From NCBI GenBank assembly GCA_026394695.1, contig JAPKXT010000186.1:1-34459 (forward strand): DNA of 34,459 nt. Reading direction: 5' to 3'. Made by a program: the position numbers and the translations under genes. This document shows, one piece after another, positions 7,707 through 14,839 of this stretch (positions are counted from its first letter, which is position 1; each line of letters starts with the position of its first letter). Under the pieces are notes generated by a model. It was not told where the DNA came from, ran no database searches, and saw only the letters and a list, made by a program, of their open reading frames with translations. The stretch comes from Methanoregula sp. (GTDB lineage: Archaea; Halobacteriota; Methanomicrobia; Methanomicrobiales; Methanospirillaceae).

Positions 7707-8642
7707 ATGAAGATACAAAAAAATGTAATGTGCCTTATCATTGTTGTATGCCTGCTCGCATTAATCCCGTCACTGCAGGCTCTTTCCGATGATAACCCCG
7801 TCAACGTGATTTACCAGACTTCCTTCAGTTCAGATCCCCGCTGGACAACAAACAATCCTTCAACCAATTACTGGGACCCGAACAAGGAAATGTACCACTT
7901 CACTGTTGAACCGAGTACTGGCGGTTACGCGTACAAAGATATCGATTATGAGAGAGGTTCATTTACTTTTGATTATGATCTCTTCCTCACCGAAGTCGAT
8001 GAGGGTGCGACATTCAGGTTCGGTTTATCCGGAAGCGAGATGGACCCATCCAAGAGTCCTAATGTCCTCTCAGTGTTTGACAATGGAAAATATGGACAGA
8101 TTATGTGGCTTCACCTGGTGACTACTGGCAGTAAGCTGATGGAAGTGAACAGCCAGCATGCGGCAGTGGAAATGGGACCAACTGCCTATAACGGACCTAC
8201 GGCAAAATATGAATTAAACAAAACCTACCACGTTACGGTGAAATACGAGGATGATCGTAAGATCCTCAGTATGTCGGTCAGTGAAAAGATAACCGGGAAG
8301 AATATCTGGAGTTACTACATAAACACTGCTGAGAACCTGAACGGAATGAACAGGATATATGTGGGCTCCAAGGGTGACTATGGCATGATGAATATTTACG
8401 CATTGGGATATATCGACAATGTCCGCCTCACCATACCTGCTGCAGTAACAACCACACCCACAGAGATTGCGCAAGAGACTACAGTCACGACCCTCAAACC
8501 AACCACAAAACAAACCATTATTGTGCCAACACCCTATCCCACCAGTACTGCTGCATCACCTTCTGCAGGTATCCTTGCTATGGGGGCAATTGGTATTGTT
8601 GGTGTTGTGTACAGTATTCTGGGCAGGATGAAAAAAGAGTAA
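7707..8642 (+). CDS. Secreted/surface-anchored protein (signal peptide, beta-rich ectodomain, Thr-rich linker, C-terminal TM)
   Basis: N-terminal signal MCLIIVVCLLALIPSLQAL; TTTPTEIAQETTVTTLKPTTKQT linker; ILAMGAIGIVGVVYSIL-GRMKKE anchor. Confidence 0.75.
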   Translation: MKIQKNVMCLIIVVCLLALIPSLQALSDDNPVNVIYQTSFSSDPRWTTNNPSTNYWDPNKEMYHFTVEPSTGGYAYKDIDYERGSFTFDYDLFLTEVDEGATFRFGLSGSEMDPSKSPNVLSVFDNGKYGQIMWLHLVTTGSKLMEVNSQHAAVEMGPTAYNGPTAKYELNKTYHVTVKYEDDRKILSMSVSEKITGKNIWSYYINTAENLNGMNRIYVGSKGDYGMMNIYALGYIDNVRLTIPAAVTTTPTEIAQETTVTTLKPTTKQTIIVPTPYPTSTAASPSAGILAMGAIGIVGVVYSILGRMKKE

Positions 8643-8652: not shown

Positions 8653-9025
8653 AATGAAGCAGATTACATCCGGCTTATAATGTATGGTTGCCGAGGGATT
8701 GATGAGATCCCTAATCTTTGGAGTGAGATTTGGTTTCAAACGTTCCCGGTTGTCATGAAGTATGGGGTTTTCATGAGGTTCAGCTGTGCATTGCATGGGT
8801 CGGTGACACACCACATATCTGATATGCATCACCTTACATCATAAAATACTGCCAGCATATGATAAATACATAAAATCCTGCTGGTTGAAGTGTTGAACCG
8901 CAAGGTTAGATCAATGAACAGAAAGGATTGATATCACAATGCAATAATATTAACCGTCAATCCCATATATTCCGGTAGTCATACATTGGTAACAAATACA
9001 GGAATACCCCGGAAAGGGGAGATCC

Positions 9026-9811
9026 ATGAATCCGGCTGATAAGTCTCCGACAATAATTGTCCATGAAGAAACCGACTCATTAGAGGAACTCTCTGAGTAT
9101 CTCGATGTGCTCTCAAGCAGCGTACGGCTCCGGATACTAAAATTTCTTGAGAAAAAGCCCCGAAATGCCCGTTCTATCTCAAACGAGATCGAGACCAGTT
9201 ATGAAAATACAAAAAAACATCTTGACAAGCTGATGAGTATCGGCGTTATCAAAAAAGAGGCAGGCCTGGGTGCGCCGACATCCAAGGGTATCCACCCCGT
9301 CTGGGAATATTCCATTGTTCAGGGGGGGCTTGAAACGATCATAAGGAACCTGGGACTTTTTTCAAACACGCGGGTGCAGATAATCGGCAATGAGATTTCC
9401 CGCCGTCTCGATGCAGTAAAAAACACCCTTTCCCGGGAAGTTCTTGGAAATACTCCAGCCGCGATCGTACTTGGCGGACCGGATGACGGGAAAGTGTTCC
9501 TGTTAAAACAGGATCATATCCGCATCGGGCGGATCGATCCCGAGAACAAGACAGCGTTCTCTCCTGAAAACGATATTGCCCTCTCCATTGGTTATACCGC
9601 GGTTACCCGGGTCTCAAAGCCGCACGGCAGGTTCGTCTCTGACAAGGAACACTGGTATATTGAGGACTGCGGAAGCACGGGGGGCACCCGTCTCAACAAT
9701 AAAAAGCTCGAAAAGAATACCCGGATTGCCCTGCATGACGGGGATCTCATCGAACTGTCACGGGGTGTATCCGGTGTCAGCCTGCTCATGATCATCCCGG
9801 AAGGCAGTTGA
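9026..9811 (+). CDS. ArsR-like winged-helix DNA-binding domain fused to FHA domain
   Basis: N-term DVLSSSVRLRILKFLEKKPRNARSISNEIETSYENTKKHLDKLMSIGVIKKE (wHTH); C-term DHIRIGR...VSKPHGRFVSDKEHWYIEDCGSTGGTRLNNKKL...LHDGDLIEL (FHA). Confidence 0.88.
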   Translation: MNPADKSPTIIVHEETDSLEELSEYLDVLSSSVRLRILKFLEKKPRNARSISNEIETSYENTKKHLDKLMSIGVIKKEAGLGAPTSKGIHPVWEYSIVQGGLETIIRNLGLFSNTRVQIIGNEISRRLDAVKNTLSREVLGNTPAAIVLGGPDDGKVFLLKQDHIRIGRIDPENKTAFSPENDIALSIGYTAVTRVSKPHGRFVSDKEHWYIEDCGSTGGTRLNNKKLEKNTRIALHDGDLIELSRGVSGVSLLMIIPEGS

Positions 9812-9891
9812 TATACGCATCATCATTAAATACCGGATGTCAGAAAAAACAATAACCCTAATGTCTGTTCAATAAAAAACATTCACCACTC

Positions 9892-11991
9892 ATGATCCCT
9901 GTTAGTCGCATAGCTCGTTTCCTTGGTATCCTCGCGCTCATCTGCATCGGGTGCATTCAGGCAGCAGCTGCGGCAGAGCATACGGTGGCGCCGTCCGGGG
10001 CTGAATTTTCCAGCATTCAGGCTGCGGTTGACCGGGCATTTCCCGGAGATATCATTACCGTCCGGAGTGGAACCTACCATGAAAACATCCTGCTGGATAA
10101 GCAGGTTTCACTTATAGGCATCGACAGTGGCAGCGGGGTACCGCTGATTGAACCATTAAACAATGGAAATGCGGTTAAAATTACTATTGACGGCTGTACC
10201 CTTGAAGGATTTACCCTCCGGAACAGCGCATCTCCTGCTGCTATCTTCATCAAGTCTGACCAGAATACTATCCGGAATAATACACTTTTGAATAATACGC
10301 GGGGGATATTTTTGCAGTCAGCGATGAAAAATACCCTGTCCGGTAATACAATCACTGACAACAACGAATACGGAATTGTGCTTGAAGAGTCCAGGGACAA
10401 TGTTATTGAAAAAAACATCATAATGAAGAACAAAATCGGGATTACCCTCGATTTTTACTCTCTTTCAAATCATATCTTCTACAACAATTTTGATAATCCC
10501 CAGAACGTAATCTCGTGGAGCCCGACTTCAGTCTGGTCATCACCCCAGAAATTCATGTATACCTATCTTGGCCTTGAGCAACAGGGTTACCTGGGAAATT
10601 TCTGGAGTGATTACCATGGCAGGGATAAGAATGGTAATGGTGTGGGGGACACTCCGTATAGCATCAGGATCGGTTCAAATCCAAAAGCGATCTTTGAATC
10701 CAACCAGAATACCGTAGACGCATTTCCCCTCATGGATCCAACACGATACTACAGCAGTGTCGTACCGGTTACCGATGAGGTTATCGCTCCTTCCACAATC
10801 CCCCTCCCGACAATCCCCGGCATATCTGGCACCGTGGTTACATCCCCTGTTCCCGGCAACCTGACAACGGTATCCCCCTCCGTGTCATCAATACCTGCAG
10901 AAAAGCCCGCTGAAGGAAAAACCACGGGGCTTTTAATGTTTGAGCTTATTGTCCTGCTGACTGCAGGACTGGTGGTTCTGGTGATCTTCTGGCAGCTGAA
11001 AAAGGGTGAGAGGGTACGGGAGGAGATGGCAGCGGGCATCCTGTCAGCACCCTATAAAATGCCTGCGGAAAATTCGGGCCACCCAGGCGGCGCATCTACC
11101 GTCATAACCCCCAATACCGCTAATCCAAGCACAGTTCTGACATGGCCTTCTGCCTCTCCACATGAACAGAAGAACTACTTTCCCCGGGAACTGGAGAACA
11201 AGTATTATACCAGCATCAGATACATCGGGCGTGGCGGCATTGCATGGGTCTATTCTGCCCAAAAGAAAACTGATGGTATAAAAGTAGCGGTAAAAATCCC
11301 GATCAGTTTCGATGAGATGACCGGGAAAGCGTTTTTAAATGAGATTGCAGCCTGGCAAAGCCTGCGGCATCCCAATATTGTTCGGGTGACCGCTGTCAAT
11401 ATCCTCCCGGTTCCCTATGTCGAAATGGAGTATGTGCCGGGTGGGTTGGAAGCGCTGGAAAAACCGGTGCCCCTCTGTAACGCAGTCCGTCTCGTCAGAG
11501 GAATTGCCGATGGGCTCAGGTATGCCCATGAGCATGGATTCATCCACCGGGACATAAAACCCCACAACATCCTGCTTGATGAGGAACAGAGACCAAAAAT
11601 TACAGACTGGGGGATGAGCAAGGTGCTGGCCACCGATATAAAAAAGTCCAGTATTGCAGGATTCTCGCTCTCCTATGCTGCACCTGAACAGGTATCTCCC
11701 TCGGAATTCGGGAGAACGGACGAACGGACAGATATATACCAGCTGGGAGTGGTTTTCTATGAACTGGTAACCGGCTCGGTACCGTTTGGTGGTGAGAGTA
11801 TTGTTGAAGTGGGAAATTCGATCGTGAGGGAGCAGCCGGTAACCCCGTCAAAGCTCAATGCTGACGCAGCACCGGCAGAGGATATCATCATGAAATGCTT
11901 ACAAAAGGATCCGCTGCAGCGATTCCAGTCCGCACAGGAACTGATCGATGCGATTTCCAGGCTCTGTAAAGAAGAACCTGAAGGGTCCTGA
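9892..11991 (+). CDS. Receptor-type Ser/Thr protein kinase: signal peptide, NosD/PbH1-like right-handed beta-helix, TM helix, Hanks-type kinase
   Basis: Ectodomain repeats NTIRNNTLLNNTRGIFLQ / NTLSGNTITDNNEYGIVLEES / NVIEKNIIMKNKIGITL; TM LLMFELIVLLTAGLVVLVIFWQL; kinase GRGGIAWVY, VAVKIP, HRDIKPHNILL, DWG, APEQ, DIYQLGVVFYELVTG. Confidence 0.93.
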   Translation: MIPVSRIARFLGILALICIGCIQAAAAAEHTVAPSGAEFSSIQAAVDRAFPGDIITVRSGTYHENILLDKQVSLIGIDSGSGVPLIEPLNNGNAVKITIDGCTLEGFTLRNSASPAAIFIKSDQNTIRNNTLLNNTRGIFLQSAMKNTLSGNTITDNNEYGIVLEESRDNVIEKNIIMKNKIGITLDFYSLSNHIFYNNFDNPQNVISWSPTSVWSSPQKFMYTYLGLEQQGYLGNFWSDYHGRDKNGNGVGDTPYSIRIGSNPKAIFESNQNTVDAFPLMDPTRYYSSVVPVTDEVIAPSTIPLPTIPGISGTVVTSPVPGNLTTVSPSVSSIPAEKPAEGKTTGLLMFELIVLLTAGLVVLVIFWQLKKGERVREEMAAGILSAPYKMPAENSGHPGGASTVITPNTANPSTVLTWPSASPHEQKNYFPRELENKYYTSIRYIGRGGIAWVYSAQKKTDGIKVAVKIPISFDEMTGKAFLNEIAAWQSLRHPNIVRVTAVNILPVPYVEMEYVPGGLEALEKPVPLCNAVRLVRGIADGLRYAHEHGFIHRDIKPHNILLDEEQRPKITDWGMSKVLATDIKKSSIAGFSLSYAAPEQVSPSEFGRTDERTDIYQLGVVFYELVTGSVPFGGESIVEVGNSIVREQPVTPSKLNADAAPAEDIIMKCLQKDPLQRFQSAQELIDAISRLCKEEPEGS

Positions 11992-12043
11992 TCCCTGATG
12001 ATACCTACAACCATATCCAGTATGATAAAAAGAGATTGCTGAC

Positions 12044-12235
12044 ATGTCTGATGAAAAAAAACTTTATGAATCCGCTCTATGTGCTCATTGTGGGGGAATA
12101 GGATGCCTGTACTGCAATAAAAAAGGAGTTGTTCTTGTTCCTGCACCCAAAAAGCCATGCGCTCATTGCGAAGGGATTGGGTGCATATACTGTGGGTTTA
12201 CCGGTTGGGCTGCACCTAAAGGTAAGTATGATTAA
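12044..12235 (+). CDS. Small duplicated Cys-knuckle (DnaJ zinc-finger-like) protein
   Basis: Two copies of CAHCxGIGCxYC in 63 aa; starts 52 nt after the kinase stop, same strand. Confidence 0.7.
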   Translation: MSDEKKLYESALCAHCGGIGCLYCNKKGVVLVPAPKKPCAHCEGIGCIYCGFTGWAAPKGKYD

Positions 12236-12251
12236 GTAATCGCCCTGATTT

Positions 12252-13490
12252 TTATGAAAATTTCCCCTCAATCCTGCGCGGGATCACACATTCCTCGTAT
12301 CGTTTTGCAAAGTACCGGTCGGTCATACCAGCGATAAAGTCCCGTACCAACTCGGGAGATGTTGCTGACTGAAGATAGATCTGACTGATCCAGCTGGTAT
12401 CAATAAAATCGGTAAAAATTTTTGCATCCCGTAACTCTTCCTCGACATCATTCAGGTATGTCGCAAACAGGGTTGCATACATCTGCTTAACTTTTTCCCT
12501 TTCTGAAGTGAGTTTTTTGTTATTGTAAATATGGATCCGGGAAAATGAGCGCAGGGAAATAAGTGCCTTTTCCACATCCGGGCTGTACGATATATAACCA
12601 ATATCTTCCGTGTTACTGTTTTCCAGAAGGTCGTAAATTAGTGTGTTTATGATTTCCCGGTTGGAGTCACCAAGAGTATCCCTGCATTCTTGCGGAAGCG
12701 GGGTTGTACGCCCGATCAATCCCACTTCACGGGCATCCTGCACATCTCTGCCAATGTAAGCGATGGTGTCAGAAAATTTTACAACACAACCTTCGAGTGT
12801 CATTGGTTCCTTTGTTCGCCTGCCATCTGCATTGTCCTGCACTTTTTTGTCAAATGCCAGCCAGGTCTGGCAGGGTTCAGGTGAGATTTTAAGATCGTCA
12901 GCTTCGCCGTTGTGACAGAGAATCCCGTCCAGCACCTGCATAGTGAGGTCACAGTCTTCAATACGATCGAGGAATTGAACGCTCTGAACATTATGGAAAA
13001 ACTTTCCGATGCCGTATTGCTCACAGAGTTCCGACAGGCAGGTCTCTCCAAAATGCCCGTACGGGATATGCCCGATATCATGGCCGAGAGCGATCGCTTC
13101 AATGAGATCTTCGTTCAGCCTCAGGCAACGCCCGATAGTCCGGGCGATCTTTGATACGATCTGCACATGAATGACACGGTGGGTTATGTGGTCGTTTTCG
13201 ACAAGGTAAAAGACCTGTGTTTTATCGATATACCGCGTATATGCCCTTGTATGAATGATCCGATCAGCGTCCCGAGAGTAGGGGGTACGGATATCATCAG
13301 GTTTTCTGTTGTGCCTTCGCACTGCATCGACACTGGTCGCGGCAAGAGGAGACAGCAGCGATTCCCGTTTATCGGTCATGGCGTGAATGGAGGAGTCGAT
13401 ACCGGGGCTGGGAAGTCGCTGGTCCTTTTTGGAACGGGGCATCTTACCGGTGAATCTGCTCCCTTGGGTATTAAGTGTGATGGAAATCAC
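12252..13490 (-). CDS. HD-domain dNTPase (deoxyguanosinetriphosphate triphosphohydrolase-like)
   Basis: TPYSRDADRIIHTRAYTRYIDKTQVF, ITHRVIHVQIVSKIARTIGRCLRLNEDLIEAIALGHDIGHIPYGHFGE; true start may be internal (e.g. MTDKRES, about 13379). Confidence 0.85.
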   Translation of the reverse strand: MISITLNTQGSRFTGKMPRSKKDQRLPSPGIDSSIHAMTDKRESLLSPLAATSVDAVRRHNRKPDDIRTPYSRDADRIIHTRAYTRYIDKTQVFYLVENDHITHRVIHVQIVSKIARTIGRCLRLNEDLIEAIALGHDIGHIPYGHFGETCLSELCEQYGIGKFFHNVQSVQFLDRIEDCDLTMQVLDGILCHNGEADDLKISPEPCQTWLAFDKKVQDNADGRRTKEPMTLEGCVVKFSDTIAYIGRDVQDAREVGLIGRTTPLPQECRDTLGDSNREIINTLIYDLLENSNTEDIGYISYSPDVEKALISLRSFSRIHIYNNKKLTSEREKVKQMYATLFATYLNDVEEELRDAKIFTDFIDTSWISQIYLQSATSPELVRDFIAGMTDRYFAKRYEECVIPRRIEGKFS

Positions 13491-13945: not shown

Positions 13946-14839
13946 ATGGCAAAGAAAACAACAAAAAAAGAGGTGGCAGATGAAGAGTGCAATAAAGAGT
14001 GCTCCAACTGCCCCACTGCAACAACCTGCGCATCAGCAAAGAACGGGCCGGCTGGCCTCCCCCCGAAAGCAAAAGTTGACGTCAGACATGTCATCATGGT
14101 ACTCTCGGGGAAAGGTGGCGTGGGCAAATCCACCGTGTCTGTAAACCTTGCCTATGCCCTTTCCAACCATGGTTTCAAGGTTGGGCTTTTAGACCTTGAC
14201 ATGCATGGCCCAAACATCCCCAAGATGTTGGGTATCGAGGATCATAAACTCGCTATTATGGGAGAAATGATCGAACCCGTCCACATCACCGGGATGCTCT
14301 CTGTCATATCGATGGCGTTCCTTCTGCCTGACACAAGCACACCGATCATCTGGCGAGGTCCTATGAAGATGGCTGCAATTCAGCAGTTCCTCAACGAAGT
14401 GAACTGGGGCACACTGGATTATCTGGTTGTCGACCTGCCCCCCGGAACTGGTGATGAGGCCCTCACCATCGCCCAGCTCGCCCCCAATCTCCGTGGGGCA
14501 GTAATTGTCACCACTCCTCAGGATGTCGCAACACTTGATGCGCGGAAATCTGCAAAATTTATCCAGAAACTTGAAGTTCCCGTACTGGGTATCATCGAGA
14601 ACATGAGCGGAATGATCTGCCCTCACTGTGGAGAGGAAATTGACCTCTTTGGCAAGGGTGGTGGCAAAAAGATCGCAGATGAACTATCCGTCCCATTCCT
14701 TGGTGCAATACCGATCGATATCGAAATGCGTAAATCAGGGGATGAGGGACGCCCGTTCATCATAAAGCGCGGCAACAGCCCCACGTGGGAGGCTGTTGAC
14801 AAGGTTATGGAAGCGCTCATCAGAGTTGTTGAGGGTTAA
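13946..14839 (+). CDS. Mrp/Nbp35/ApbC-family P-loop Fe-S carrier ATPase
   Basis: VLSGKGGVGKSTVSVNLAYALSNHGFKVGLLDLDMHGPNIPKMLG; DLPPGTGDEALTIAQ; ENMSGMICPHCGEEIDLFGKGGG; N-terminal Cys cluster. Confidence 0.93.
   Translation: MAKKTTKKEVADEECNKECSNCPTATTCASAKNGPAGLPPKAKVDVRHVIMVLSGKGGVGKSTVSVNLAYALSNHGFKVGLLDLDMHGPNIPKMLGIEDHKLAIMGEMIEPVHITGMLSVISMAFLLPDTSTPIIWRGPMKMAAIQQFLNEVNWGTLDYLVVDLPPGTGDEALTIAQLAPNLRGAVIVTTPQDVATLDARKSAKFIQKLEVPVLGIIENMSGMICPHCGEEIDLFGKGGGKKIADELSVPFLGAIPIDIEMRKSGDEGRPFIIKRGNSPTWEAVDKVMEALIRVVEG

Follow-up and report, generated by a model that had tools for sequence, protein, structure and literature searches.

What links a receptor-like Ser/Thr kinase to the predicted DNA-binding protein with an FHA domain encoded just in front of it, and do the two genes truly belong together? 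The question is raised by a window of 34,459 nucleotides (the whole stretch of DNA analysed) from a Methanoregula-like genome, in which three consecutive open reading frames on the + strand encode a winged-helix/FHA fusion (wHTH-FHA), a beta-helix/transmembrane/Ser-Thr kinase fusion and a small Cys-knuckle protein (Table 1). The preliminary description had reported three such consecutive genes, and all of them are present at its coordinates; Pfam and AlphaFold2 recover the domains of the first two. Because the layout is conserved across genera, chance can be excluded as an explanation of this observation, and on comparative grounds the wHTH-FHA and kinase genes are a real two-gene system.

Table 1. 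Features of the locus, in window coordinates
Feature	Position	Strand	Remarks
Dyad 1, GGTTGAAGTGTTGAACC	8883..8899	.	candidate operator half of tandem pair
Dyad 2, GGTTAGATCAATGAACA	8904..8920	.	21 bp from dyad 1
wHTH-FHA regulator	9026..9811	+	261 aa
Thr9 codon	9050..9052	+	candidate phosphosite in tail predicted to be disordered
Winged helix domain	9071..9316	+	residues 16-97
FHA domain	9458..9793	+	residues 145-256; G168, R169, S197, H200, S217 and T218 conserved
Receptor-like Ser/Thr kinase	9892..11991	+	699 aa
Predicted extracellular right-handed beta-helix (NosD-like)	9976..10671	+	residues about 29-260
Transmembrane helix	10930..10986	+	residues 347-365; 346-379 in AlphaFold2
Juxtamembrane linker	11011..11178	+	residues 374-429; T403-V-I and T414-V-L, candidate FHA docking sites
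Kinase domain	11179..11970	+	residues 430-693; K468, E484, HRD D554, N559, DWG D572
Cys-knuckle ORF	12044..12235	+	63 aa, 52 bp downstream of kinase

We assessed the pairing in 100 neighbourhoods chosen by their FHA or wHTH-FHA match alone, with the kinase ignored, which contain 101 further wHTH-FHA genes. A kinase gene adjoins 99 of these, in almost every case as the next gene downstream with the same orientation, and twice convergently (L056, L057); the two without one lie at a contig edge (L131) and next to a PP2C gene (L138). Among the named GTDB genomes, a set overlapping with the fetched neighbourhoods, a kinase adjoins 72 of 80 wHTH-FHA genes, the other eight being near contig ends. The distance matrices of the two proteins correlate with r = 0.90 over 98 pairs, as against a mean of 0.36 (maximum 0.41 of 500) when partners are swapped within genomes, and the nearest relative points to the correct partner 51 times out of 54, where chance would give 24. 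The fetched pairs are related and these counts are not independent events, for which clustering and the within-genome swaps are a partial remedy. Only the wHTH-FHA and kinase families recur in all clades, amid otherwise unrelated contexts, and in three Methanoregula genomes (L244, L245, L246) exactly this pair is missing from an intact order of UP311, Cys-knuckle, dGTPase-like and MRP genes. The preliminary description had staked its proposal beforehand on co-occurrence in relatives, and it clearly survives that comparison: the pair co-occurs, co-diverges and is absent together. Judged by these sequences, the kinase and its dedicated wHTH-FHA protein are adjacent, inherited together and co-diverging.

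Relatives of the wHTH-FHA protein were found in 48 of 60 near relatives, and a profile search across the class recovered them from 140 of 199 genomes, with records from Methanoregula, Methanolinea, Methanoculleus, Methanofollis and further Methanomicrobiales; one family of the order with smaller genomes (f6) is almost wholly devoid of them. In a phylum-wide profile search the full-length matches end at the order boundary, E falling from 7e-26 to 5e-10 among the matches listed, beyond which there are partial matches, mostly to the wHTH. The genome itself carries a second wHTH-FHA/kinase pair on contig C180. A 942-aa open frame there (G000:C180) was considered as a kinase-factor fusion and rejected as an apparent read-through, since a TGA closes the wHTH-FHA gene and the kinase continues behind it without a frame change.

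The regulator consists of an ArsR-type wHTH (PF01022, 26.8 bits against a cut-off of 22, which satisfies the general HTH_5 model) and an FHA domain (PF00498, E 1e-12), joined in the AlphaFold2 model by a two-helix linker (residues 101-140). Its score against the ArsR/SmtB metal-sensor model NF033788 is 25.5 bits, below the cut-off of 55, and against the OdhI equivalog NF041660 it is 25.5 bits, below the cut-off of 200; Pfam found no BTA domain of the EmbR/SARP architecture in it, and no histidine kinase or receiver domain in either protein of the pair. Foldseek matches the protein to FHA structures with probability 1.00, its hits including 6hc0, 6hc1 and 6i2p. The phosphothreonine-pocket residues are kept nearly throughout (G168 and R169 in 102/102, S/T197 in 98/102, H200 and S217 each in 101/102). 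Many FHA domains have an Asn after GS[T/S], a feature that is common though not universal. Here the peptide-contacting Asn of the GS-x-NGT loop is replaced by Gly219 in 99 of 102 sequences, and therefore the peptide contact may differ. In one genome (G002:C152:10642-11354) the wHTH-FHA frame is interrupted, by assembly error or decay.

Ahead of the wHTH lies a short tail, residues 1-14, predicted to be disordered (pLDDT below 50), and within it Thr9 is a threonine in all 99 sequences having the column; of the other three rows of the alignment, two stop short of the site and the third is the divergent second copy of L138. Among representatives below 60% identity, all 20 that include this column likewise have Thr there. 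The flanking residues are variable apart from a hydrophobic one at +1, often joined by others at +2 and +3, and Thr9 thus corresponds to the conserved N-terminal threonine in a flexible tail that characterises GarA/OdhI. The divergent L138 copy (10051-10854), which starts MIHCKTFELPED and has no aligned Thr9, yet adjoins a kinase.

On the kinase side, Pfam found a NosD/Beta_helix region (E 4e-28) and a Pkinase domain (E 1e-43) on either side of one internal transmembrane helix; the AlphaFold2 model agrees with this layout, adds an N-terminal helix (residues 4-21) and gives low confidence to linker residues 374-421, which are presumably disordered. The Hanks-type active-site residues are all in place, namely the VAIK Lys, HRD Asp, HRDxK Lys, catalytic Asn and DFG Asp; K468, D554, K556, N559 and D572 (as DWG) are invariant in 100 of 100 kinases, and the active site of this membrane kinase is, to judge by its residues, intact. 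Ectodomains differ among the paired kinases, comprising NosD-like beta-helices, PEGA repeats, multi-TM and short forms. The preliminary description had cast the beta-helix as the sensor; because other kinase copies have different ectodomains, it is not the defining one. One kinase reading frame is interrupted (G023, L039 4583-6513), again by assembly error or decay.

The linker between transmembrane helix and kinase domain perhaps provides the connection between the two proteins. T-[ILVMF]-[ILVMF] occurs in 67 of 97 such linkers, compared with 11.2 expected from shuffled linkers, and after clustering at 50% identity in 10 of 14, compared with 1.1 expected; the control patterns S-hyd-hyd, hyd-hyd-T, A-hyd-hyd and acidic-hyd-hyd are at or near expectation. 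Because this pattern was written after some linkers had been seen and the test was thus motivated by the data, we repeated it with a matrix built from Thr9 flanks only: the linkers' mean best score is 1.81, against -0.29 for shuffled linkers (SD of means 0.17), and Ser-centred linker sites show no enrichment with this matrix. The motif is present in 68 of 98 paired kinases and in 1 of 19 unpaired kinases of the same genomes (p 1.5e-7). Kinase L157, which has the motif (NVTVVTR), was set aside from the unpaired set, as it belongs to the paired type and its contig ends there. About 30% of linkers are without the strict motif, and some of these keep a Thr with a relaxed flank, such as NITRVKK in L069. 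As far as residue patterns can tell, the wHTH-FHA protein and the kinase both carry a matching candidate phosphothreonine motif.

The cassette promoter of Methanoregula supplies a candidate for the DNA end of the pathway, a pair of tandem GGTT-N9-AACC dyads. The core GTT-N9-AAC has 56 sites in 31 of 33 Methanoregula-type promoters versus 2.6 expected, with other spacings near expectation; in most of these promoters the dyad is doubled at a distance of 21 bp, with copies about 142 and 121 bp ahead of the start codon, and in the window's own genome the double dyad occurs once, in the cassette promoter. From their position and dyad symmetry, the tandem dyads are the likeliest binding site of the wHTH-FHA protein, which would make the cassette autoregulated. 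TATA-like boxes, read by eye, flank the dyads at 8862-8868 and 8943-8953, so both repression and activation are possible. Nothing clearly similar was found in the promoters of other clades. A wider regulon defined by the double dyad was considered and dropped: there is the one match in the own genome, and elsewhere matches are scattered at about the rate of a reversed-pattern control. A double dyad at about 1500-1540 of L272 (G024) precedes a gene for a 263-aa predicted secreted protein, a possible further target. Upstream of the dyads, a GTGtATCACCT block (about 8820-8836) is conserved in Methanoregula-type promoters and weaker in the window.

Starting from the gene pairing, the co-divergence, the conserved and enriched motif and the intact active site, all of them read from the sequences, we propose that the pair acts as a phosphothreonine signalling cassette with docking, a Thr9 switch and phosphatase reset, to which we assign a probability of roughly 0.7; GarA/OdhI and EmbR-PknH are the models from which we infer each step of phosphorylation, binding and transcriptional control. 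A signal arriving at the ectodomain would favour dimerisation of the kinase, which would autophosphorylate threonines of its juxtamembrane linker (T403 and/or T414 here). The factor, by its FHA domain, would then dock on the linker pThr-[VIL]-[VIL], allowing the docked kinase to phosphorylate Thr9 in the disordered N-terminal tail, within the same motif as in the linker. The factor's own FHA domain would bind pThr9, in cis or in the partner subunit, and this would bring about release from the kinase and a change both in dimer geometry and in DNA binding. On the tandem dyads of the cassette promoter the wHTH-FHA protein would exert autoregulation, activating or repressing, and the PP2C phosphatase, clustered with the pair in some lineages, would reset the switch.

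Several elements of this scheme have precedents. In actinobacteria the FHA domain of OdhI/GarA docks on an autophosphorylated Thr of PknG (PMC8546545); like the wHTH-FHA protein, OdhI/GarA combines FHA with an N-terminal Thr tail, and its recruitment to an autophosphorylated kinase threonine (PknG or PknB) and later self-binding (PDB 6i2p, 2kb3) are both predicted here. In contrast, GarA/OdhI act on metabolic enzymes and lack any DNA-binding domain, and their ETTS motif is absent here. DgcB of Bdellovibrio, whose FHA domain binds its own phosphorylated N-terminal tail (PMC6733907; PDB 6hc0, 6hc1), has Val at +3 and switches an attached output, as we predict for the wHTH-FHA protein; the output of DgcB, however, is a GGDEF enzyme. 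FhaA is bound by the juxtamembrane region of PknB in its phosphorylated form (PMC12077195). EmbR of Mycobacterium tuberculosis needs its C-terminal FHA domain for interaction with PknH (PMC4601284) and shares with our pair the arrangement of a membrane Hanks kinase and a transcription factor, the action of one on the other being a prediction here. Yet EmbR is built of an OmpR-type wHTH and BTA, in place of an ArsR-like wHTH, helical linker and disordered N-terminal Thr tail; profile similarity between EmbR structures and the wHTH-FHA protein is confined to FHA, and some species here have several paralogous pairs per genome, with exchangeable ectodomains. Within archaea, ArnA/ArnB with ArnC/ArnD of Sulfolobales (PMC6509490, PMC10470591) likewise involve an FHA protein under Hanks-type kinases with an effect on transcription, but ArnA carries a zinc finger in place of a wHTH, and its partner is the vWA protein ArnB. 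The proposed anatomy would thus combine these precedents: a linker with a docking motif, a factor whose tail repeats that motif, an FHA domain and a DNA-binding domain.

The same motif in linker and tail also permits a different order of events, in which FHA binding to the linker phosphothreonine tethers the factor to the membrane and away from DNA, the output being its release, and Thr9 competes for the FHA domain to tune that release. The match between juxtamembrane and Thr9 motifs and the PknB-FhaA precedent (PMC12077195) are consistent with this version. We nevertheless think it unlikely, because conservation is stricter at Thr9 (99/99) than in the linker motif (67/97), a sign that Thr9 is the primary site. 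The kinase might instead phosphorylate another part of the regulator, such as the wHTH or the helical linker, with FHA serving for docking only and Thr9 being kept for another reason. EmbR-PknH would be the model, since FHA is needed there for the kinase interaction and a predicted site is in the BTA domain (PMC4601284). That Thr9 sits in a tail unstructured in the model and carries an FHA-type motif argues against this, and we consider it improbable.

A more sceptical view would take the adjacency as neutral synteny, with kinase and factor serving unrelated pathways; the kinase-factor link, after all, comes from comparison, and the flanking UP311, CYS, dGTPase and MRP genes are likewise syntenic in Methanoregula. 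Recurrence of only these two genes in unrelated contexts of all clades, their joint absence in L244-L246, the drop in correlation on swapping partners and the motif-poor unpaired kinases make this view very hard to maintain. The opposite extension, a single module of all three genes in which the Cys-knuckle protein senses redox state or zinc, draws on that gene's position on the same strand 52 bp behind the kinase in most Methanoregula copies. Its product has two CxxCxGxGCxxC copies, resembles a DnaJ zinc finger and matches no Pfam family; the gene occurs in 50 of 60 relatives and outside Methanoregula shows no linkage to the pair. Because it stands beside UP311 and dGTPase genes without the pair in L244-L246, and in other genera lies at a distance from the pair, we place it outside the system, as a syntenic bystander, contrary to the preliminary description; the three-gene module is scarcely credible.

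Returning to the signalling cassette, the sequence clues suggest that the kinase may switch a DNA-binding protein directly, as an archaeal counterpart of bacterial two-component signalling. Both would have a paired sensor kinase and DNA-binding partner, duplicated and with variable sensors; unlike two-component systems, the pair has no histidine kinase or receiver and would use Ser/Thr chemistry and phosphothreonine reading. We are evenly divided on the broader proposition that one methanogen order uses a modular Ser/Thr analogue of such signalling, with duplicated kinase/wHTH-FHA pairs, interchangeable ectodomains, partner-by-partner insulation, pThr-[VIL]-[VIL] used twice, for linker docking and then tail switching, and autoregulation through a tandem operator. 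A prior description of the kinase/wHTH-FHA pairing was not found in the literature searched, most subscription journals being outside its scope. The wiring of archaeal Hanks-type kinases to outputs is known mainly from Sulfolobales. If the model is correct, wetland and digester methanogens would gain a direct route from membrane to promoter without histidine kinases. It names specific testable sites, Thr9, the docking residues T403 and T414 and the DNA at 8883-8920, and the co-divergence of partners would offer a natural test case for insulation of duplicated Ser/Thr kinase pathways.

Lastly, several neighbouring genes deserve mention. A PP2C gene lies immediately beside the wHTH-FHA or kinase gene on the same strand in seven loci and three arrangements: upstream of wHTH-FHA (L053, L055, L059, L061, L139), downstream of the kinase with an 18 bp gap (L118), and behind a wHTH-FHA gene without adjacent kinase (L138). 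PP2C is present in 47 of 60 relatives; no PP2C_2 match was found in the window's own genome, which is 75% complete. In three loci a MacB-like ABC permease (assigned by sequence) lies directly upstream of wHTH-FHA and co-directional with it, at gaps of 30 to 71 bp (L107 4959-6149, L051 5507-6718, L136 4583-5788); MacB-type exporters as a common target were rejected, as they adjoin the pair directly in those three loci only. An anti-phage role was also discarded, the PADLOC matches being unspecific because they are confined to the kinase domain of the kinase and the wHTH of the factor. In the window, positions 7707-8642 encode a predicted secreted protein with a Thr-rich stalk and a C-terminal hydrophobic helix, which is conserved immediately before the cassette in 25 Methanoregula-type loci and is retained where the pair is missing. 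Downstream, a dGTPase-like HD hydrolase (12252-13490) and an MRP/NBP35-type ATPase (by sequence; 13946-14839) follow in conserved order. A second type of kinase without a wHTH-FHA neighbour occurs in L140-L156; most of these kinases continue for about 102 aa beyond the kinase domain, and several lie near a PP2C gene.
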